Positions 1 through 10,250 of a stretch of 10,627 nucleotides of DNA are shown here, piece by piece. The stretch spans positions 1 through 10,627 of the forward strand of contig DAOVMD010000065.1 of NCBI GenBank assembly GCA_030630935.1, in the 5' to 3' direction. The position numbers and the translations under genes were made by a program. This DNA comes from Candidatus Mcinerneyibacteriota bacterium (GTDB lineage Bacteria; AUK180; JAQVHJ01). The notes under the pieces were generated by a model. That model had not been told where the DNA came from and ran no database searches. It saw nothing but the letters and a program-made list of their open reading frames with translations. The stretch's first letter is position 1; each line of letters opens with the position of its first letter.

Positions 1-857
1 CCTTTTAATTTTTTATTTTTTATCAAGTGTTCTAATATCAATGCAATCACGATATTAGGAGGGATAAATTTTCCTTTTTCGTCTATAATTCCAAACCTGT
101 CAGCATCACCATCTGTAGCAATCCCGATATCAGCTTTATTTTTTTTAACAGTTTTAGACAGTTCAACTAAATTCTCTGCGTCAGGTTCGGTTGATCTATT
201 TGCAAATAGAGGATCTCTAAAATCATGTAGTAATTTCAAGTCAACATTCCCTTCGAGTAATTTATCAAGGTAGCCTATAGAAGTTCCGAACATACAATCC
301 TGGACAACTTTGAGTTTTGCAGATTTAATCTTCTTGAAATTTATTAATTCTCTAATTTGCTTAAAGTAATCATTCATTGGGTTTATAATTTTAATTAATC
401 CTTTTGATGCTGCAGTTTCAAAATCCAATTTTTTAATATCCTTCTCTTTAATGAGTTCAATATATTTTTCAATCTCCATAGTTACTTCAGATGGTGCCGG
501 AGCTCCAGATGCAGGAGAAAATTTCAAACCGCTATATTCCGCAGGATTATGCGAAGCTGTAATATTAATCCCACCTGCAAGTTTTTTCTTTATAATCATA
601 TATGAAATCACGGGAGTCGGGCAAAAAGTATTGACGAAAAGAACAGGAATCTTATTTCCTGCCAAAACTTCTGCAGATAATTTTGCAAATTCAGGAGATA
701 GAAATCTTGTATCATATCCGATAATTACAGGAGTCTTTTTCCTTTTTGATTTTAATATATATTTAGCAATTGCTTGAGAAACTAATGCAACTCCGGAGAA
801 AGTAAAATCTTCAGCGATTATCCCGCGCCAACCCGATGTTCCAAATTTAATTTTCAT
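1..857 (-). CDS. Phosphoglucomutase/phosphomannomutase family protein, 3' end beyond the window
   Basis: The frame is open from an ATG at 857 to the window edge, giving 285 residues without a stop. Family members are usually about 450-470 residues, so domain 1, most of domain 2 and none of the C-terminal domains are visible. The N-terminus reads FGTSGWRG (5-12). The phosphoserine loop TASHNP is at 100-105 with catalytic Ser102, and the metal-binding loop DGDADR is at 249-254. These are hallmarks of the alpha-D-phosphohexomutase family, which moves phosphate between C6 and C1 of a hexose in the cytoplasm. The sugar-specificity loop lies in the missing part, so glucose, mannose or glucosamine cannot be chosen. 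GTSGWRG fits PGM/PMM better than the GTDGIRG-like start common in GlmM. A Shine-Dalgarno AAGGAG (869-864) lies 6 nt before the ATG, and that ATG overlaps the cheR stop in an ATGA. Confidence 0.93.
   Translation of the reverse strand, partial: MKIKFGTSGWRGIIAEDFTFSGVALVSQAIAKYILKSKRKKTPVIIGYDTRFLSPEFAKLSAEVLAGNKIPVLFVNTFCPTPVISYMIIKKKLAGGINITASHNPAEYSGLKFSPASGAPAPSEVTMEIEKYIELIKEKDIKKLDFETAASKGLIKIINPMNDYFKQIRELINFKKIKSAKLKVVQDCMFGTSIGYLDKLLEGNVDLKLLHDFRDPLFANRSTEPDAENLVELSKTVKKNKADIGIATDGDADRFGIIDEKGKFIPPNIVIALILEHLIKNKKLK
854..857 (-). other. ATGA stop/start overlap between cheR and the sugar-phosphate mutase
   Basis: Read on the minus strand, positions 857-854 spell ATGA. The ATG (857-855) starts the mutase and the TGA (856-854) ends cheR. 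With the Shine-Dalgarno AAGGAG inside the last cheR codons, this arrangement usually gives coupled translation from one mRNA. Confidence 0.9.
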
Positions 858-1687
858 TTTTCACTCCTTAATCTTTTTTTATAAACTCTCTCTTTTACGG
901 ATAAGCTCCTAAAATAACTCTCACCAATTCCTAAGATAGTCTCAACCTTGCCCAGAACAAGGTATCCGTTATTGATAAGATCATTATGGAATTTCTTCAA
1001 AATCTCTTCCTGGAGAGTCTTTTCAAAATAAATAAATAGATTTCTACAAAAAAGAATATTAATTCTTGTAAAATGAGCATCTTTAATTAAATCTCTCTTT
1101 TTAAACTGGATCATCTCTTTTATTGAATCCTTAATTTTGTAGTTTCCGTCTTTTTGCTTATCAAAATACTTGGGTATGATTTCAGGCTCTTTATCAAGAA
1201 GTACTCTTAAATTTTTTGCGGGATATATTCCCCGCTCAGCAATTTCTAAACTTTTATCGTCAATATCAGTTGCAAAAATATCAATTTTTACCCTTTCAAT
1301 CTTTCTGCCAAATGCTTCACGTAATGCTATCGCAATTGAATATGGTTCCTCACCTGAAGAACAAGCAGCACTCCAAATTCTTAGCTTGAATAAATTTTTA
1401 TCCTCAGAATAAGGAACAAATAAATTTGACTGAAGATACTTAAAAGCAGTATAGTCGCGGAAGAATTGAGTTACATTAATTGTGATTGTATCAATTAATG
1501 TATTCATCTCCTTATCATTATTTTGGAGAAAATCAAAGTATTCTTTATATGAATGGATATCTAAAGCACGCAGTCTTACTCGAAGCCGCCTCTTTAAACA
1601 TTTATCTTTATAATGAGTGAAGTCCAGAGAACTCGACCTCTCAATCTTTCTGAGAATTAAACGAAAAGCAATATCCTCTGGCGACAT
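854..1687 (-). CDS. cheR: Chemotaxis protein methyltransferase CheR
   Basis: This 277-residue protein has the size and layout of CheR, which uses S-adenosylmethionine to methylate glutamates in the cytoplasmic part of chemoreceptors. An N-terminal helical domain (about 1-80) carries a basic KRR patch (33-34 region) and the NVTQFFRD motif (71-78). The Rossmann-type methyltransferase domain follows, with the SAM loop WSAACSSGEEPYS (105-117), the acidic ATDID (139-143) and FCRNLFIYF (213-221). There is no C-terminal TPR fusion, but two separate TPR genes lie directly upstream. The ATG is 1 nt after the upstream TAA. It has no good Shine-Dalgarno sequence, so translation is probably coupled to the gene before it. 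The stop TGA overlaps the mutase start. All catalytic motifs are present, so the enzyme is likely active. Confidence 0.96.
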   Translation of the reverse strand: MSPEDIAFRLILRKIERSSSLDFTHYKDKCLKRRLRVRLRALDIHSYKEYFDFLQNNDKEMNTLIDTITINVTQFFRDYTAFKYLQSNLFVPYSEDKNLFKLRIWSAACSSGEEPYSIAIALREAFGRKIERVKIDIFATDIDDKSLEIAERGIYPAKNLRVLLDKEPEIIPKYFDKQKDGNYKIKDSIKEMIQFKKRDLIKDAHFTRINILFCRNLFIYFEKTLQEEILKKFHNDLINNGYLVLGKVETILGIGESYFRSLSVKERVYKKRLRSEK

Positions 1688-1688
1688 A

Positions 1689-2999
1689 TTAAACTTGACC
1701 TAAAATTTCTAAATTTCTATGAGCGAGTTTATTGGTAGGGTCGATCTCCAGAACTTTTTTCCAGCAGGCGATTGCATCAGATTTTTGATTCTTCTTTAAA
1801 TAAATTCCCGCAAGTTTATTATACCCATCAATATAGTCTGGTTTCAATTTTAGAACATTTTGAAATAATTTAATTGAACCGACAAAATCTTTTTGGAGAT
1901 ATTTAAGGTTTGCAAGTTCCATGATTGCAATAACTTTGTTGGGGTTAATTGAAATAATTTTTGTGAAAAAGGATTCTGCCTTTTCAAAGTTATTTTCTTT
2001 TGTATAAATCTTGCCCAAACTCATTAAAATACCAATATCCTTTGGTGTAATATTTAAAGCATTATTGAAAATTTCAAGTGCTTTTGCCTTCTGGTCTAAC
2101 TTATAATAAGTTAAACCGAGATACTTGAAAATTGAAACATCATCAGGGAATAGTTTGGCTGCTTTTTCAAACTCTTCTAAAGCTTGTTTAAAAAGTCTAT
2201 CTTTATAAAATTTCACTCCTAATTGGAATGATTTACTATCAATTGATGAGGGATTAATATCTAAAAACTGTGTTATCTCCGACTTAAATTCATCTTCTAA
2301 CTCTTTCTCTCTACTCAACTCAATGATCTTATCTTTTATTAATTCATTTAGCACTTGTAAAACAATGAATTTACTTCTTTTACTATTAAAAACAATGTCA
2401 TTTACTGTATTGTTATCATCTACTAAACTTAGTATCTCATAATCAATTGCTGGATATTTTTCATCGGTCTTGGGATTAATAATTTTATATATTTGGATGC
2501 CGGGTATTTCCTTTTCAAGATTTTCAACTTTATCAATTCTATCAATACTCCCCATTAGTAAACTTTGAATAGCAATTTTATATGCATTGGGATAAGTCTT
2601 TTCAATATCTTTTCCCTTTAGAAATTTGAATTTACCTACATTCATTGAAAGGAAATCAACAACAATCTCTTTAATCTGATCTTCCTGAAGCTGAATAAAC
2701 TCCTGCTTGTTAATTTTCGCATCTTTTAATAGCCTACTAAAGATTTCCTTCTGAGTCTTTCCAAAAGACCGTAAAACCTTAAATTCCTTTAAGCTTAAAT
2801 TGTTATTCCTGACGTAAACATCAAAAATATTCTCCCTTATCGAAGATGAGATTGCTCCTCGAATCTCTCCTTTTAGAAAATAAATCTTACCGGTAAATTC
2901 ATTTACTGCAATCTCTAATATACCTGTCTTCTTCCCAAATGTAATTATCTGGAAAAGATCTGGTAAGGGTATTGTATCAAGTGTACCTTCAACTGTCAT
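1689..2999 (-). CDS. DUF4388 (PatA N-terminal-like) protein with a C-terminal TPR domain
   Basis: This 436-residue soluble protein has three visible parts. Residues 1 to about 135 resemble DUF4388, the domain at the N-terminus of PatA-type regulators. They open with EGTLDTIPLPDLFQIIT, followed by a KKTGILEI strand and GKIYFLKGEIRGA, and close with a GKFKFLKG strand. Residues about 186-230 look like a small winged-helix fold (LSLVDDNNTVNDIV, then VLNELIKDKIIEL), as often follows DUF4388. Residues 252-421 form five 34-residue TPR units plus a half unit to the end. I see no signal peptide or membrane segment. The function is unknown; TPRs normally bind proteins, so a scaffold or regulator in the chemosensory complex is plausible. 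The start follows a strong GGAGG (3014-3010, spacing 10) and overlaps the preceding TPR gene by ATGA; cheR follows after 1 nt. Domain calls are from pattern recognition. Confidence 0.85.
   Translation of the reverse strand: MTVEGTLDTIPLPDLFQIITFGKKTGILEIAVNEFTGKIYFLKGEIRGAISSSIRENIFDVYVRNNNLSLKEFKVLRSFGKTQKEIFSRLLKDAKINKQEFIQLQEDQIKEIVVDFLSMNVGKFKFLKGKDIEKTYPNAYKIAIQSLLMGSIDRIDKVENLEKEIPGIQIYKIINPKTDEKYPAIDYEILSLVDDNNTVNDIVFNSKRSKFIVLQVLNELIKDKIIELSREKELEDEFKSEITQFLDINPSSIDSKSFQLGVKFYKDRLFKQALEEFEKAAKLFPDDVSIFKYLGLTYYKLDQKAKALEIFNNALNITPKDIGILMSLGKIYTKENNFEKAESFFTKIISINPNKVIAIMELANLKYLQKDFVGSIKLFQNVLKLKPDYIDGYNKLAGIYLKKNQKSDAIACWKKVLEIDPTNKLAHRNLEILGQV
2996..2999 (-). other. ATGA stop/start overlap between the two TPR genes
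   Basis: On the minus strand 2999-2996 reads ATGA. The ATG starts the DUF4388-TPR gene and the TGA ends the 17-unit TPR gene. The pair is probably translated together, which supports the two proteins acting as partners. Confidence 0.88.
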
Positions 3000-4900
3000 G
3001 TACTTGTTTCCTCCCCTTCTTCATCTTTAAATTTTGATCTAGATAATGATTTTAACCATTCATCACATTCCCGGATGCCAAGTTTCGCTTCTTTTACTCT
3101 ATATACATTTGTAGACCTTTCTAAATAAATTCCCCACTGTTCAATTGCTTCTTTGTACCAAGCCTTATTCAAATATACTTTTCCAAGATAAAAATAAGCT
3201 TCAATGTAACTATCGTCAATTTCAAGAGTTCTACGATATTCCCAGACCGCTTCAGACCACCATTTTTTATGGGCATAAGCTCCGCCTAAATTAAAATGAG
3301 CAGCAGGATTATCGGTATTGATTTGAATTGCTTTATCGTACATCATAATCGCGTCATCAAAGTTCTTTAGCTTCTGATATGTTGCTCCGAGATTCACAAA
3401 GAACATTTCATTATCGGGTTCAAGTTCAATTGCCTTCTTATAATGAGTAATTGCTTCATCAGATTGATTAACTAAAATTAGAATATTAGCGAGATTATTA
3501 AAATAACCTGCATCTGCACTATCTAATTCAATTGCCTTCTTCAAGAATTTAATCGCTTTCTCAAGGGATTTCTTTGCTTTATATAATAAACCAATCTCAT
3601 TAAATATCTCAGCATTATTTGGATTCTTTTTTAAGGCTTTCTGATAATATGATAGTGCCTTCTCAGGATCATGCATTCGCCGGAAGCATTTACCAAGGTA
3701 GAAATTCAAATCCTTTAAATCCGGATTAAGCTGTTCAATCTTTAAGAAAATTTTCAAGGCAGAATCCATGTTATTCTCTTCAAGATAAATTCGACCTAAA
3801 CTCATCAGAGCGTCATCATATTCCGGGTTGATATCAATCGCTTGCTTTAATAGTTTAAATCCTTCATCATGCATACCTTCATGATAATAGATTGTTCCAA
3901 GATTCCCCATTGCAAGAGAATTCTTTGGATTAATCTCTAATATCTGCTTGTAATATTTGATACCATTCTCAATATCATTCTTACGCCAATAAACTTTTGC
4001 AATATTAAGAAGAGCAGACTCATAATTCATATCAAGATCAATTGCTTTTTTTAGATTTTTTTCTGCTTCATCATATTCTTTTCTTATAATTAATAAAACT
4101 CCGAGATTATTATATAATATTTGGTTTTCAGGTTCAAGAACGATTGCTCTTTTTAAATAATCAATCGCTCTCGAATATTCCTTTAACTTAGTGTAAATTT
4201 TTGCTAAATTTACTAAAGGTTCTGCATATTCCGGATTGGCTTGAATTGAGTTTTCAAATTCCTTAACCGCTTCATTAAAACGACCGGTATTCATATAAGC
4301 CTGACCCATTGTATTCAATGCGATTGCATATTCCGGGTCTTTTTTTACAACCGGTTTACTTAATTTCTTAATGTCTTCTTCGTACATCTTCATTGCTTTT
4401 TCATCAAGACCTACTCTGGCATGGGCTTCTGCATAATTAGGATTGATCTCCACCGCTTTATTATATACCACAGTAGCTTCATCATACATACCCTTATCAC
4501 CGTAGGCAAAACTTAAATTATAATGAGCATCTGCATTGTTTGGATTAATATCGATAGATTTCTTAAAGTACTTTATTGCATCGTCATACATACCTTTATG
4601 GTAATATACTTCACCGAGATTATTAATTGCAACATCATTTGTTTTATCTAATCCAATCGCCTTCTTATATTCTGTGATCGCTTCATCATAATTCCCCATC
4701 TCTTTGTGAGCAACACCAAGATTATTATGAGCAAGTGCATAATTCGGTTCAAGGATCAGAGACTTGTTAAAGGCTTCAATTGCGTCGAGGTACATCTCTT
4801 TTGAAAAATAAAATACACCAAGGTTATTTAATGCTCCGGGATTATTCTGATCAACTTTACTGGCGTACATCTTAAATATATCTTTTGTCTTATTACCCAT
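2996..4900 (-). CDS. 17-unit tetratricopeptide repeat protein in a chemotaxis operon
   Basis: The chosen ATG gives 634 residues, almost all of it TPR. After an 18-residue leader, 17 consecutive units run from residue 19 to 597. All are 34 residues long except unit 5 (155-189), which is 35 and irregular. The canonical pattern (NLG near position 8-10, Y or F near 12-13, EA or DA near 21, P at 34) is clear in most units. The tail (598-634) has one more helix and ends in a charged, acid-rich stretch. There is no signal peptide or membrane segment, so the protein should be a cytoplasmic superhelical scaffold; its partner is unknown. The ATG is 4 nt after the cheW stop, with an AAGG overlapping that stop but only 2 nt away. 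A TTG at 4915 would add five residues but has no ribosome site. The next gene overlaps by 4 nt. Confidence 0.88.
   Translation of the reverse strand: MGNKTKDIFKMYASKVDQNNPGALNNLGVFYFSKEMYLDAIEAFNKSLILEPNYALAHNNLGVAHKEMGNYDEAITEYKKAIGLDKTNDVAINNLGEVYYHKGMYDDAIKYFKKSIDINPNNADAHYNLSFAYGDKGMYDEATVVYNKAVEINPNYAEAHARVGLDEKAMKMYEEDIKKLSKPVVKKDPEYAIALNTMGQAYMNTGRFNEAVKEFENSIQANPEYAEPLVNLAKIYTKLKEYSRAIDYLKRAIVLEPENQILYNNLGVLLIIRKEYDEAEKNLKKAIDLDMNYESALLNIAKVYWRKNDIENGIKYYKQILEINPKNSLAMGNLGTIYYHEGMHDEGFKLLKQAIDINPEYDDALMSLGRIYLEENNMDSALKIFLKIEQLNPDLKDLNFYLGKCFRRMHDPEKALSYYQKALKKNPNNAEIFNEIGLLYKAKKSLEKAIKFLKKAIELDSADAGYFNNLANILILVNQSDEAITHYKKAIELEPDNEMFFVNLGATYQKLKNFDDAIMMYDKAIQINTDNPAAHFNLGGAYAHKKWWSEAVWEYRRTLEIDDSYIEAYFYLGKVYLNKAWYKEAIEQWGIYLERSTNVYRVKEAKLGIRECDEWLKSLSRSKFKDEEGEETST
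3110..4846 (-). repeat. Protein-level array of 17 TPR units
   Basis: The segment encodes 17 tandem TPR units in strict 34-residue (102-nt) register, apart from unit 5 with 35 codons. The units are alike as proteins but clearly diverged in DNA, with only short shared blocks such as those encoding GMYD(D/E)A in units 3 and 4. This is an old, stable array rather than a recent tandem amplification. Confidence 0.85.
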
Positions 4901-4904
4901 AACC

Positions 4905-5363
4905 TTACACTGCAATTATTTTGTTAAAATCTAAAATTATAACCGGTTCATCATCAACTTTCCCTATACCTTCCAGGTAATCAGTTGAAATACCGGCAAC
5001 TAACTTTGGAGCAGGTTCAACATCGTCTTCTGAAATGTTCTTCACTTCTTTAACTGAATCTACTAATAAACCTATCTTCTGGGTTTCAGTACGTGCAACC
5101 ATAATCATTGAGTTTGGAAGAATATCCGTGTTTGCCAAACCTAGTTTCTTTTTTAAATTAATTATTGTTATAACTTCTCCACGGAGATTTATAATTCCTT
5201 CAATGAAACTATCTGCATTTGGAACCCTAACAATATTAATCATCTCTTGAATCTCGTTAATATTTGTAATTCTGAAACTAAAGAGTTCATCGTCTAATTT
5301 AAATAAAATTAGTTGTGCAATCTCAGATATACCTATGATTTGCTTCTTAACTTTTTGCTTCAC
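4905..5363 (-). CDS. cheW: Chemotaxis coupling protein CheW
   Basis: This 152-residue single-domain CheW is of normal length. CheW bridges CheA and chemoreceptors in the membrane-associated signalling array. The fold begins at QLILFKLDDELFSF (about 17-30). It includes VRVPN (45-49) and the family's most conserved stretch, GIINLRGEVITIINL (56-70), with Arg61, and ends with a PVIILDFNKII strand. The start is a GTG, chosen because an AGAGG overlapping the upstream stop lies 5 nt before it and no ATG fits better. It sits between a CheC-type gene (8 nt gap) and the long TPR gene (4 nt gap). It is the only stand-alone CheW here, although CheA carries its own CheW-like P5 domain. I see no missing key residue. 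Confidence 0.95.
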   Translation of the reverse strand: MKQKVKKQIIGISEIAQLILFKLDDELFSFRITNINEIQEMINIVRVPNADSFIEGIINLRGEVITIINLKKKLGLANTDILPNSMIMVARTETQKIGLLVDSVKEVKNISEDDVEPAPKLVAGISTDYLEGIGKVDDEPVIILDFNKIIAV

Positions 5364-5373
5364 ACGAACCTCT
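5361..5373 (-). promoter_or_regulatory. Ribosome binding site and GTG start of cheW
   Basis: On the minus strand AGAGG (5373-5369) overlaps the TAG stop of the upstream CheC-type gene and is followed by a 5-nt spacer and GTG (5363-5361). It decides the cheW start, which would otherwise be unclear because there is no ATG at this position. Confidence 0.75.
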
Positions 5374-5986
5374 AAATCTCAGTTGTGATTTTGCTCAAGA
5401 TTACTTCAATCCCTTCAATATAGGGAATCATAAAAAAGAAAGACGAAAAAGCGTTTTCAGAATCATTAAATTGAGTCTCTATGAAATATATTGTATCAGC
5501 AATATCCTTATCATCAAGTGCAGATTTAAGAACCTTCTCACTTTTATCAGTCAATAAATGCGGCATGGAAGGAATCAATAAAAGATTCAAGAAATCACTC
5601 ATTGCTGATAAATACGAACCCGATATAATATTTGCGATTTCTTTAATTGTTGAGTGGCTGAGATCATCAAGAATTATGGTCTCACCTGGTTTTCTTTTCA
5701 TTAAAATATCAACCAGAGAAAGGGCATCTGTTCGGGAGAGAAGAAAAATGATTTTCCCGGTTGCCTCTCCCAAAATAAATAGTGATACTCCTACCATAAT
5801 ATCATCAACGTTCGAAATAAATTTGTGTAAATCAGCTTTTTTAATCACCTGAGAAGATAGAATTTTTATCTCAATTTTCTTTTTCAGTAATTGAGATAAT
5901 GAGGTTGCTGCATGACCTGAACCAATACTACCTATCTCCTTTAATGCATCAAGTTGGAGCTGTGTTAGTTTTGTTAAATCTATCAT
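5372..5986 (-). CDS. Second CheC-family phosphatase, with only the second active site intact
   Basis: This 204-residue protein belongs to the CheC/CheX/FliY family, which dephosphorylates CheY-P or related receivers. The family site is D/S-x3-E-x2-N-x22-P, often present twice. The second site is complete: Ser112, Glu116, Asn119 and Pro142. The first keeps Asp13 and Glu17, but has Ser20 (codon AGT, 5929-5927) for the Asn and Leu43 for the Pro. These numbers match the other CheC in the window, so the two are paralogues. After Pro142 it departs from the typical CheC pattern, lacking the DM-containing helix and carrying a charged stretch (about 146-163). It may therefore have lost CheD binding and act as a dedicated phosphatase; this is inference. 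Two-site architecture argues against CheX. A GGGAG (5995-5991) precedes the ATG, 17 nt after cheA. The position between cheA and cheW is unusual. Confidence 0.88.
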   Translation of the reverse strand: MIDLTKLTQLQLDALKEIGSIGSGHAATSLSQLLKKKIEIKILSSQVIKKADLHKFISNVDDIMVGVSLFILGEATGKIIFLLSRTDALSLVDILMKRKPGETIILDDLSHSTIKEIANIISGSYLSAMSDFLNLLLIPSMPHLLTDKSEKVLKSALDDKDIADTIYFIETQFNDSENAFSSFFFMIPYIEGIEVILSKITTEI

Positions 5987-6003: not shown

Positions 6004-8085
6004 TTATAATATTCCTTGAATATCCAAAATTAAGGCAGGATTACCATTTGCCAAAATGGCAACACCTGAAAAAGTCCTAATCTTCTGGAGCAATTTATCT
6101 AATGCTTTAATTACAATCTCCTGTTGGCCTAATAATTCATCAAAAACAATACCTGCTTTCTTCTCCCCAATTTCTACTACAACAATAGGTTTCAAGTCAT
6201 CATCTTTCATCTTAGAATCAATGTTCAATACTCTATTCATCCTGATTATCGGCAGAATCTCCTTACCCTTTAATAAAACAGTTTCTTTATTCTTTATTGT
6301 TTGTATATCTTTTATATAAATTTCAGAAGTCTCCTTGATATTAACCATTGGGAGTAAATAAATCTCATCTTTCAACCTAACAAGAAGTGCCTGAATAATT
6401 GCAAGAGTTAAAGGTAATTTTAATTTGAAAGTTGAACCCTTACCTACTTCAGATTCAATTTGGAGAATTCCACTTAAGGATTCAATCTTATTCCTAACAA
6501 CATCCATCCCTACTCCACGTCCGGAAATATCAGTGACTTTCTTTGCAGTCGAAAATCCAGGTTCACAAATTAATGAGAATATCTCTTCTTTCGTTAATTC
6601 TTTCCCTGTATCTTTTGTAATAATACCACGTTTAATACCTTCTGCCTTAATCTTCTCAGAACTCATACCCTTACCATCATCTATTACTTCAATAATAACC
6701 TGATTTTTCTCTCTGCGTGCAATAAGATCAATTTTTGCAACTTTAGATTTACCGCTCTTCTTTCTTGCTTCTTTTGTTTCTATCCCATGATCAACGGCAT
6801 TTCTTAGTAAATGAACTAAGGGCTTACCTATCTCATCTAAAATAGTCCTATCTAACTCAATATCCCTTCCTGTAATGTTGAAGCTGATATCCTTCTTTGC
6901 ATCCTTTGCAAGATCTCTAACCATCCTTGGGAACCGGTCAAAGATCTGCCCAACAGGAACCATTCTTGCCGTCATGATTAGCTGCTGAAGATTAGTTGCG
7001 ATTCTTGAAAGCTGAACAATTGTATCATCTAATTCCTTTAAATTATATCTACGGGCTTGATCCTGAAGTTGAATTTTGTTGATGACTAATTCACCAACCA
7101 AATTAACCATATCATCCAATTGCTCAATATTAACCCGGACATTTTGAATTGCCTGGGTCCTTAGTAATGTCTCAACCTGTTTCTTTCCTTTCGATAATTT
7201 ACCCTTAGTACCTTTCGGTGTGATCACCAGTTCAGGTTTTGAAGGTACTACTTCCGATTTCATCGGAAGTGATTCCTCAACAGGTTCATCTAAATCAAGT
7301 TTAACCAGATCTACCGAATCAATTTCTCTAATCTCCTTGATAAAACTCTGGATTAATTGCGGATCTTTATGAGATAACATTAAAAGAGAAAACGATAAAT
7401 CAAATTTCTCCTCTTCTATTTCATCAACTCTCGGAATTGATTTTATAATATCTCCCATCTCTTCAAGTTTTTGGAAAACCATGTATGCTCTAACTGATTT
7501 CAACATACAGGTTTCTTCAAGATTTACAGTTAACAGGATTGGAGTAAATCCGGATGCTGAGCCTTGGTTTAAAAGGTTTAATTCATAACTATTTAAGGAA
7601 AAAGCATCTGAAGGTGGAATCTGCTCAGATTCCGGGATTGGAATAGCTTTCTGATTTTGAGGTTGAGTTACCGGCTGTGCCTGCTTCGGTGGAGTTGCAG
7701 AAGGTGTTGCGGCTCTGAACTCTTTTACTTTATTTATTATATCTTTTATTTCAACCCCTTCTTTTTCACCTTGAGAGATGTTCTGAATCATCATGGTCAT
7801 CATATCCATCCCTTCAAATAATATTTCAAATATCTCTAAGCTGAACTTGAGATTACCACGTCTAATATCATCAAGAAGATCCTCAAGCTTATGTGCCAGC
7901 TCAGCAATAATATCGAATTCCATTGTTGCTGACATACCCTTCAAGGTATGCATGGCTCTAAATATATTTTCAAATACAACCGAATCATTCGGATTATCTT
8001 CTAAGTAAACAAGATTATTATTTATCTCTTGCAAGTTCTCTGTTGCTTCACTTAAAAATACATCAAGGTACTTAGATAAATCCAT
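6004..8085 (-). CDS. cheA: Chemotaxis histidine kinase CheA
   Basis: This is a full-length 693-residue CheA, the kinase that autophosphorylates in receptor arrays and passes phosphate to CheY and CheB. P1 (about 1-105) has the phospho-accepting His46 in MHTLKG. A Pro/Gln-rich linker spans about 127-160. A P2 domain (about 180-264), resembling Thermotoga P2, should dock CheY/CheB. A second linker is Lys/Pro-rich. P3 dimerisation helices lie at about 312-378. The P4 ATPase follows with the N box HLLRNAVDHGIE (425-436), G1 DDGKGM (469-474), an F-box region around 511 and G2 GKGST (548-552). The CheW-like P5 runs from about 560 to the end. All catalytic elements are present and no receiver is fused. 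A GGAG (8095-8092) lies 6 nt before the ATG, and the gene starts 11 nt after cheB. Confidence 0.98.
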   Translation of the reverse strand: MDLSKYLDVFLSEATENLQEINNNLVYLEDNPNDSVVFENIFRAMHTLKGMSATMEFDIIAELAHKLEDLLDDIRRGNLKFSLEIFEILFEGMDMMTMMIQNISQGEKEGVEIKDIINKVKEFRAATPSATPPKQAQPVTQPQNQKAIPIPESEQIPPSDAFSLNSYELNLLNQGSASGFTPILLTVNLEETCMLKSVRAYMVFQKLEEMGDIIKSIPRVDEIEEEKFDLSFSLLMLSHKDPQLIQSFIKEIREIDSVDLVKLDLDEPVEESLPMKSEVVPSKPELVITPKGTKGKLSKGKKQVETLLRTQAIQNVRVNIEQLDDMVNLVGELVINKIQLQDQARRYNLKELDDTIVQLSRIATNLQQLIMTARMVPVGQIFDRFPRMVRDLAKDAKKDISFNITGRDIELDRTILDEIGKPLVHLLRNAVDHGIETKEARKKSGKSKVAKIDLIARREKNQVIIEVIDDGKGMSSEKIKAEGIKRGIITKDTGKELTKEEIFSLICEPGFSTAKKVTDISGRGVGMDVVRNKIESLSGILQIESEVGKGSTFKLKLPLTLAIIQALLVRLKDEIYLLPMVNIKETSEIYIKDIQTIKNKETVLLKGKEILPIIRMNRVLNIDSKMKDDDLKPIVVVEIGEKKAGIVFDELLGQQEIVIKALDKLLQKIRTFSGVAILANGNPALILDIQGIL

Positions 8086-8096
8086 ATCCTGCTCCG

Positions 8097-9137
8097 CTAC
8101 TCAATAATAAAATTTATAATTGAATCAATAATATTATTCAATGGTAAAACCTGGTCTGCTGAATCACTTTCAATTACCGATTTCGGCATTCCAAAAATCA
8201 AAGATGTCTCCTTATCCTGGGCAACAACATGCCCATCATATTCTTTTATCATCTTACAACCTTGAGTCCCATCATGACCCATCCCTGTTAAAATTATTCC
8301 AAGTAAACTCTTGGCAAAAATTCGGGATAATGAATCCATTGTAATATCAACCGATGGTCGAACACCCCAAACAGGCGGGTCCTGGTTCAATGCAATCTTC
8401 AATTTCTTATCCCTTTTAGGAATAATACGCATATGAAAATTCCCGGGAGCAAGGTAAACAAAATCACGTTTGATTTCGTCGCCCTCTTCTGCTTCCTTTA
8501 CGGTTACCTGCGATATTTCATTTAATCTTTGCGCAAACGAAGTAGTAAAACCCGCAGGCATATGCTGAACAACAAAATATGTTGCGTTTAAACCTTTTGG
8601 TATAAATGGTATTATCCTTTCCAGAGCTCGCGGTCCGCCGGTTGAAGAACCAATTATAACTCCTTTTAAATCTCCGGTTAGAGAGTACTTGATCTGAAAT
8701 TTTCCACTATGTTTCTTAAAGTCTTCCCGGACTTTATCTAATCTGATTTTTGATGCTGTAATAATCTTATTAATTAATGTAGTTTGAATATCAGAAAGGT
8801 CTAAAGAAATTGTCCCTGAAGGCTTCTGAACAAAATCAATTGCGCCGTTTTCAAGTGCTGTAATTGTGGCAGCTGCATCTTTCTTTGCAAAAGCGCTTAG
8901 GATAATCACTCTTGTTGGACAATCCTTCATAATCTTTTTTAGGGCGGTTAAGCCGTCCATAACCGGCATTTCAATATCCATTGTTACTACATCGGGATTG
9001 AATTTTTTAATATATTCAATTGCTTCCTCACCATTCTTAGCTGTATCAACAACTACTAGTTCGGAATTTGAGTTTATTATATCAGATATGATTCGCCGCA
9101 TTAAAGCGGAATCATCAACAACTAAAACCCTAATCAT
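8097..9137 (-). CDS. cheB: Chemotaxis response regulator and protein-glutamate methylesterase/deamidase CheB
   Basis: This 346-residue protein has the standard two-domain CheB layout. The N-terminal receiver (1 to about 120) has acidic Asp8/Asp9, phospho-acceptor Asp54 in TMDIEMP, Ser81 and Lys105. A linker (about 121-157) leads to the C-terminal methylesterase. Its catalytic triad is Ser165 (IGSSTGG), His192 (QHMP) and Asp289 (TGMGHDG). Phosphorylated CheB removes methyl groups from receptor glutamates and can deamidate glutamines, opposing CheR. cheR is in the same operon but six genes downstream, past cheA, cheW and the TPR genes. The ATG follows GAGGT (9147-9143) with a 5-nt spacer, and that site overlaps the cheD stop. 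No key residue is missing. Confidence 0.98.
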   Translation of the reverse strand: MIRVLVVDDSALMRRIISDIINSNSELVVVDTAKNGEEAIEYIKKFNPDVVTMDIEMPVMDGLTALKKIMKDCPTRVIILSAFAKKDAAATITALENGAIDFVQKPSGTISLDLSDIQTTLINKIITASKIRLDKVREDFKKHSGKFQIKYSLTGDLKGVIIGSSTGGPRALERIIPFIPKGLNATYFVVQHMPAGFTTSFAQRLNEISQVTVKEAEEGDEIKRDFVYLAPGNFHMRIIPKRDKKLKIALNQDPPVWGVRPSVDITMDSLSRIFAKSLLGIILTGMGHDGTQGCKMIKEYDGHVVAQDKETSLIFGMPKSVIESDSADQVLPLNNIIDSIINFIIE

Positions 9138-9145
9138 TGATTACC

Positions 9146-9634
9146 TCAAAATATTTTATTACCTTTCTTGATCGAATGAACTTCAACAAGTCCAACTTCA
9201 AGATCGAGAGAAATTGTTCTCCCAAAATTACCCCGGACATCTTGATTAACCAGCTTGATTTCGAATTCTTTCAAGTATTTAATAGTAGCTTCAACATTCC
9301 GGTCGCCAATATTTAATATATCGCTCTTGGATTCAAATGAAAACATTGAAGCACCACCAAAAATCTTCGCCTCAAGATTTCTCTTTCTTGCACCCATCTT
9401 TAAAAGTTCATTAATTAAAAACTCAATTGAACAATCTGCAAACTTTGCAAAATTATCGTTCCGGGTAAAACCTTTTGATGATGGCAGCATAATGTGAGCC
9501 ATTCCACCTATCTTCAGTTTAAAATCCCAGATAGTAAGTCCGACACAGGATCCTAAACCATAAGTAATTAAGACACTTGGGGACGTTGAAATTTGAACAT
9601 CCGCCATCTTAACTTTAATCAGTTCCTTCTTCAT
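9146..9634 (-). CDS. cheD: Chemoreceptor glutamine deamidase CheD
   Basis: From the chosen ATG this is a 162-residue CheD, which converts receptor glutamines to glutamates and binds CheC. The catalytic triad is Thr24, Cys30 (in GLGSC) and His47 (in GGMAH). These sit exactly three residues later than Thr21, Cys27 and His44 recalled for Thermotoga maritima CheD. Other family blocks are the FGGASMF stretch and the IGDRNVEA stretch. The ATG at 9634 was chosen because its N-terminus (MKKELIKV) matches the usual length. A GTG at 9646 would add four residues and an ATG at 9607 would remove nine; none has a strong ribosome site. The start lies inside the end of cheC (20-nt overlap), so translation is probably coupled to cheC, fitting the CheC-CheD complex known in this pathway. 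Confidence 0.95.
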   Translation of the reverse strand: MKKELIKVKMADVQISTSPSVLITYGLGSCVGLTIWDFKLKIGGMAHIMLPSSKGFTRNDNFAKFADCSIEFLINELLKMGARKRNLEAKIFGGASMFSFESKSDILNIGDRNVEATIKYLKEFEIKLVNQDVRGNFGRTISLDLEVGLVEVHSIKKGNKIF

Positions 9635-10250
9635 AGTCCGGTACACCCAACGATTTAATTAATGAAATTAATGCAGCGGGTTCAGGCAAAAAGAATAAAT
9701 TTGCCCGAATCTTATCATCTTTCTCCAGGAACTCAGTTTTTACCATTAGAATATGAGTGGTCTTCTGTGCAAGTTGAATACAAATCATATCAATAATTGA
9801 CCCGCACATATCATAAGCAAAAGCCGGAGTCGACTGCATTAGACGCATATGTGTAAACTGCGAAAATGCCGAAAGGTAAGATCCAACCAGGATATTTGCA
9901 ATCTCCTCAAGAGCGGACTTCGAGATTAAATCCAATTCTCCTGTTACCTTATAGCTGGGACCAAGCATAATTTTTACTAATTTCAATCCCTCATCCTTCT
10001 CAAGCATGAGTAACATTGAACCGGAAGTATCTCCTGAAATAGTAAAATAAACTCCAATCTTTACAACTTCTGGACCACCAAGTTTATCTGGAATCTCCTC
10101 AATAGGGTATATTCCAACTTCCGGAACTATTAAGTCTATACGTTTGGACAGCATAGTCGAAAGAGCTGTCGCTGCATTTCCTGCACCTATTGAACCCAGC
10201 TCTTTTAACGCATCTAATTCCATTTGGGAAAGATTTTCTAACTTATCCAT
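9615..10250 (-). CDS. cheC: CheC, CheY-P phosphatase and probable CheD partner
   Basis: This 211-residue CheC is of normal length and contains the duplicated site D/S-x3-E-x2-N-x22-P. The second site is complete: Ser112, Glu116, Asn119 and Pro142. In the first, Asp13, Glu17 and Pro43 are kept but the Asn is Ser20 (codon TCA, 10193-10191). It can probably still dephosphorylate CheY-P through the second site. It keeps the typical helix after Pro142 with Asp147-Met148, in the part of CheC linked to CheD binding, and cheD overlaps its 3' end, so it is the likely CheD partner. The ATG at 10250 was chosen over an upstream in-frame start at 10358: the family begins near MDKL, a GAAGGA lies 8 nt upstream, and the extra codons would lie inside cheY. 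It overlaps cheY by 8 nt. Confidence 0.95.
   Translation of the reverse strand: MDKLENLSQMELDALKELGSIGAGNAATALSTMLSKRIDLIVPEVGIYPIEEIPDKLGGPEVVKIGVYFTISGDTSGSMLLMLEKDEGLKLVKIMLGPSYKVTGELDLISKSALEEIANILVGSYLSAFSQFTHMRLMQSTPAFAYDMCGSIIDMICIQLAQKTTHILMVKTEFLEKDDKIRANLFFLPEPAALISLIKSLGVPDYEEGTD

Follow-up and report, generated by a model that had tools for sequence, protein, structure and literature searches.

A conserved TPR and PATAN-TPR protein pair within a chemosensory operon of Candidatus Mcinerneyibacteriota, probably directed at type IV pili

In this study, we show that two genes lying between cheW and cheR in a genome of Candidatus Mcinerneyibacteriota, one encoding a large TPR protein and the other a DUF4388(PATAN)-TPR protein, are a conserved part of a chemosensory system. 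The pair is probably the output module of this system, which would steer type IV pili rather than flagella. Only in a few bacteria is it understood how polarity GTPases and type IV pili receive chemosensory signals, and the partner genes are scattered in those genomes. In two other phyla, the receptor kinase, the adaptation enzymes, the TPR scaffold, PATAN, Roadblock proteins and MglA are encoded in one conserved operon, and the class studied here carries a reduced TPR-PATAN core within its che operon, next to PilT in one family. Such a one-operon arrangement makes the contact between Che proteins and pilus regulators directly testable, and DUF4388/PATAN-TPR proteins gain a probable role in bacteria other than cyanobacteria and myxobacteria.

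The window, i.e. the whole stretch of DNA analysed (10,627 nucleotides), corresponds to contig C76 in full; the draft genome (G000) has 3.16 Mb and is 80% complete, and every gene of the window is encoded on the minus strand. In the direction of transcription, a cheY whose start is lost at the contig end (10243..10626) is followed by genes identified by domain search: a first copy of cheC (9615..10250), cheD (9146..9646), cheB (8097..9137), cheA (6004..8085; Hpt, P2, dimerisation, HATPase and CheW domains, also placed in a tree), a second copy of cheC (5372..5986) and cheW (4905..5363). Then come the TPR gene (2996..4900), the DUF4388-TPR gene (1689..2999), cheR (854..1687, 277 amino acids; domain search) and a phosphoglucomutase/phosphomannomutase-like gene (3..857), which is cut at the contig end and was named by sequence resemblance. 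According to the domain search, CheA has a single Hpt domain and CheR consists of CheR_N and CheR domains only, with no fused TPRs.

The junctions are tight and exactly as originally described. The TAA of cheW is followed by GGTT and then by the ATG of the TPR gene at 4900 (4-nt gap), an ATGA (2996-2999) is common to the stop of the TPR gene and the start of the DUF4388-TPR gene, and a single T separates the TAA of the latter from the cheR ATG at 1687 (1-nt gap). Together, the two genes occupy 3.2 kb of the 10.6-kb contig, the rest being che genes and the phosphosugar mutase gene.

The TPR protein (634 amino acids), which we propose to be a scaffold or output adaptor on the basis of Pfam, an AlphaFold model and its orthologues and homologues, is made almost entirely of TPRs and is predicted to be cytoplasmic; no signal peptide was seen in its sequence. 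A long TPR array spans it in Pfam, and the AlphaFold model (mean pLDDT 86) is a superhelix of 16 regular helix pairs and one irregular pair, so that the 17 units counted previously are right if the irregular pair is included. Alignment and model place an irregular, non-TPR insert at residues 156-188 (4337..4435, minus strand; irregular helix pair at residues 156-180), whose motif D-x-x-A-M-x-M-Y-E-E-D is kept across the class, and the superhelix is broken at the same position in the TPR proteins of all three lineages compared. Against PDB sequences, the protein matched mostly designed TPRs, OGT and other eukaryotic TPR proteins.

The second protein (436 amino acids) matches DUF4388 (PF14332), known as the PATAN domain, at residues 4-157 (2529..2990, minus strand) with an E-value of 6.7e-20 in Pfam, which also detects the C-terminal TPRs (about five). 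A segment following PATAN is wHTH-like as judged from its sequence; the structure model is poor in this region, and also in the PATAN half (mean pLDDT 55). No receiver domain (Response_reg) was matched by Pfam in this protein, no NCBIfam model matched it, and the PATAN profile found no real match among PDB sequences.

Conservation of the pair was assessed in seven genomes of the class (G000-G006). The DUF4388-TPR gene is present beside cheR in 7/7 genomes, with 62% identity in the sister genus (G001) and 27-31% in the other class genomes, and the TPR gene is present in 6/6 genomes whose contigs cover its place (the G001 contig ends at the DUF4388-TPR gene, the place of the TPR gene being outside it); no close relative keeping the other che genes was thus found to lack the pair. 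Five complete operons (G000 and G002-G005) have the TPR gene and then the DUF4388-TPR gene between cheW and cheR, and the pair is also present in G006, where a contig break within the DUF4388-TPR gene divides the operon between two contigs. Orthologues of the TPR protein within the class are 39-43% identical; its average identity to relatives (41.5%) is near that of CheA (44%) and above those of CheR (37%) and CheW (34%), which indicates strong constraint. As both gene order and sequence are kept across the class, the association of the two genes is not due to chance. Spurious ORFs were rejected since both genes are conserved across genera, and so was a pair confined to one genome, given its presence across the class genomes.

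Motility genes of the class point to pili. FlhA is needed for flagella; no homologue of it was detected in the seven class genomes (0/7), by a search that gave matches in four control genomes including well-known flagellated ones, and PilT/PilB-type ATPases were found in 7/7. In the sister family (f2), a PilT-family ATPase gene (TIGR01420, 471 bits for a cut-off of 319) directly follows cheR and precedes that of a small CheW-like protein. This is the only family with a pilus gene inside the che operon: in G000 and G001 the PilT orthologue is encoded outside it (L071 in the window's genome), which counts against a pilus output, and a phosphosugar mutase gene lies 3' of cheR instead. Family f1 has this mutase gene (3-857 in the window) where f2 has pilT, and it is so placed in G001 too. 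A separate Roadblock-MglA-Roadblock-PATAN locus is present in G002-G006, and in G001 as pieces on two contigs; MglA is thus found in G001-G006, and neither it nor this locus was found in the 80% complete assembly of the window's genome. Elsewhere in the class, the gene of a TPR protein of 398-466 amino acids abuts pilB (L060, L078, L079); this protein resembles the TPR proteins of the operon, perhaps only as generic TPRs.

Regarding inputs, class genomes encode one to eight receptors. The sole receptor found in G006 is of a type of about 570 amino acids present in six class genomes. In the five loci read (L128-L132, i.e. G006:C187, G000:C450, G004:C19, G003:C6 and G005:C88), this receptor is encoded with an ABC sugar-type transporter, i.e. 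a UgpB-like substrate-binding protein and MalF/MalG-type permeases, and in most of them with an adenine deaminase gene. The che operon of family f2 begins with genes for a cyclic-nucleotide-binding-domain protein and a long CheW (L045, L047, L048, L049), which makes a cyclic nucleotide input possible. The window's genome has a second, Wsp/ACF-like che cluster (L054, G000:C16, 4185-10578), which encodes a CheA of 796 amino acids, CheB, a CheR with a TPR-like extension (504 amino acids) and two CheW proteins.

Loci of other phyla were found with a PATAN profile derived from class sequences and were picked by their PATAN matches, so the counts below show recurrence and not frequency. The full order recovered in two other phyla is cheW-cheY-cheA-cheC-TPR-PATAN-(Roadblock)3-MglA-DnaA-like-PATAN-cheR-cheD-cheB. 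In G338, cheW-cheY-cheA-cheC-TPR-PATAN is followed by Roadblock-domain genes and by genes for an MglA-type GTPase, a DnaA-like ATPase and a second PATAN-TPR protein. Contiguous cheA-cheC-TPR-PATAN genes occur in 17 of the 19 loci of this phylum (G338 and 16 of 18 further loci), the two others being one that ends at a contig edge and one with no detectable cheA, and cheR, cheD, cheB and cheW lie further downstream in most of six extended loci. The phylum of G272 has the identical full order in four loci, and two more reach contig ends but agree with it. In both phyla, the homologues of the TPR gene adjoin cheC and PATAN, and cheR is seven genes away. The DnaA-like ATPase gene between mglA and the second PATAN gene is found in both (L126, 10442-12217; homologues in L164-L181, L190, L192 and L240-L243).

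PATAN genes also occur in other neighborhoods: beside pilB/pilT, often but not always with mglA and without che genes (L119, L120, L207, L217), beside mglA/Roadblock genes (L210, L212, L219), and next to cheY-cheA, in most cases together with cheW (L194, L196, L201, L202, L204, L206, L218). In the phylum of G338, PilT is near-universal, so that its association with PATAN is weak evidence there, and FlhA is also encoded in 30 of 84 PATAN-bearing genomes, so that a flagellar output is possible in that phylum.

The relatedness of the three lineages was assessed from TPR proteins and trees. A model of TPRs 3-4 and the break, built from the other two phyla only, gave 64-73 bits to the class TPR proteins and 39 bits to the next-best TPR protein among the loci collected. 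The reverse test was weaker, the class model placing most, but not all, TPR proteins of the other phyla above unrelated ones. In the CheA tree, a branch supported at 97/91 has all three lineages on the same side, except for one very long stray row, and in the PATAN tree the class PATAN sat on a long branch and is assigned to neither PATAN1 nor PATAN2 of the other phyla.

Conservation of the pair in the class, pilT after cheR in family f2 and the MglA/Roadblock operons of other phyla together make a type IV pilus or MglA-type polarity output probable. The original prediction had held that the pair is unlikely to be incidental and might connect the array with a polarity or cell-surface system; both statements are supported by the synteny conserved with PilT and, in the other phyla, with Roadblock/MglA. 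PATAN-domain sensory regulators control type IV pili (PMC7690835, PMC12288463) and bind PilB1/PilC in Synechocystis (PMC12288463, PMC10519157), and SgmX of Myxococcus xanthus, with 14 TPRs, binds MglA-GTP and is required for polar PilB (PMC7519303, PMC7668184). Co-occurrence of PATAN proteins with SgmX has been described (PMC11580455), as have MglA/MglB genes in the vicinity of PATAN genes (PMC4316618). Both the known PATAN-PilB binding and the link that SgmX makes between MglA and PilB agree with a pilus or polarity output. CheA and CheY, with adaptation by CheC, CheD, CheB and CheR, would signal to the cytoplasmic TPR superhelix, which with its PATAN-domain partner would recruit or gate the pilus motor ATPases (PilB/PilT), either directly or via an MglA-Roadblock polarity switch, MglA acting as the intermediate where present. 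With cheC adjacent in two phyla, the Che partner of the TPRs may be CheC or CheY-P; this partner, like every protein contact and the direction of the signal, is a prediction.

Other roles of the pair were weighed against this output. As an array scaffold, it would hold the arrays of CheA, CheW and receptors at the pole and would not act on the pilus motor. TPR superhelices commonly serve as scaffolds, the pair has cheW and cheC as immediate neighbors, and the polarity genes MglA/Roadblock co-occur with it, but PATAN is known as a ligand on the motor side (PilB) and its genes accompany pilB/pilT without che genes at the four loci mentioned above, and we consider this role unlikely. The output could also be surface polysaccharide, development or transcription instead of pili, for which one may invoke the wHTH-like segment, the pgm gene in the operon of family f1 and the lack of pilT in the operon of the window's genome; with PilT inside the operon in family f2, MglA/Roadblock in the operons of other phyla and a poor structure model for the wHTH-like region, this appears the least probable of the alternatives.

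The TPR proteins might, as originally supposed, supply in trans the TPR function of FrzF/WspC-type CheR proteins, i.e. be a detached TPR domain regulating CheR or positioning it at receptors. CheR-TPR fusions do exist, mostly in pathways with alternative functions (PMC3447774), and the TPRs of FrzF control site-specific methylation (PMC2535941); in the window's operon the pair abuts cheR, and in the other phyla cheR comes after PATAN2. Against this, the homologues of the large TPR protein adjoin cheC, far from cheR, in these two phyla, its repeats number 16 or more for three in FrzF, and the window's genome has a separate CheR-TPR fusion (in L054). We know of no link between PATAN and CheR. 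A CheR-serving role of the large TPR protein, which agrees with gene order in the window's class only, is thereby weakened, and we regard it as very unlikely.

With a pilus-directed output thus retained, we tentatively advance a broader proposal, which falls a little short of probable: a chemosensory class common to at least three phyla may exist whose output is a TPR-PATAN relay that targets a Ras-like MglA polarity switch as well as the motor of the type IV pilus; one operon would combine the sensor with polarity genes in some phyla, and with motor genes in another. Such a class was absent from the literature found, in which DUF4388/PATAN with che or MglA operons has partial precedents only (PMC4316618, PMC11580455 and others). 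Its parts (PATAN, TPR, MglA, PilT) are already known, and their combination would be, judging by sequence, a variant of chemosensory type IV pilus control.

Among known systems, the FrzF/WspC fusions share with the window the presence of TPRs within che clusters, but its CheR is TPR-free, its TPR proteins are much longer, and their counterparts in other phyla track cheC/PATAN/MglA and not cheR. The Pil-Chp system of Pseudomonas aeruginosa is similar in its chemosensory control of twitching; it uses ChpA, with many Hpt domains, and PilG/PilH, whereas the window has a single-Hpt CheA, two CheC, CheD and the TPR/PATAN pair. The PATAN-REC regulators of Synechocystis (PixG, PixE, LsiR, PilG) share the PATAN domain, which in the window is fused to wHTH-like and TPR segments without a receiver, CheY being separate; to our knowledge, PATAN-PilB binding is established only for these cyanobacterial PATAN-REC proteins. 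SgmX (and Bd2492 of Bdellovibrio) is likewise cytoplasmic, made of TPRs and encoded in a lineage that has type IV pili and MglA. SgmX uses its C-terminal TPRs to bind MglA-GTP, and the homologue of the window's TPR protein shares an operon with MglA in other phyla. However, SgmX is encoded outside che operons, with TamAB-type genes (PMC3983030), whereas the neighbors of the window-type TPR gene are che, PATAN, pilT or Roadblock/MglA genes, and not TamB/TamA-type ones; the two proteins are likened here by architecture and context, at the level of generic TPRs.
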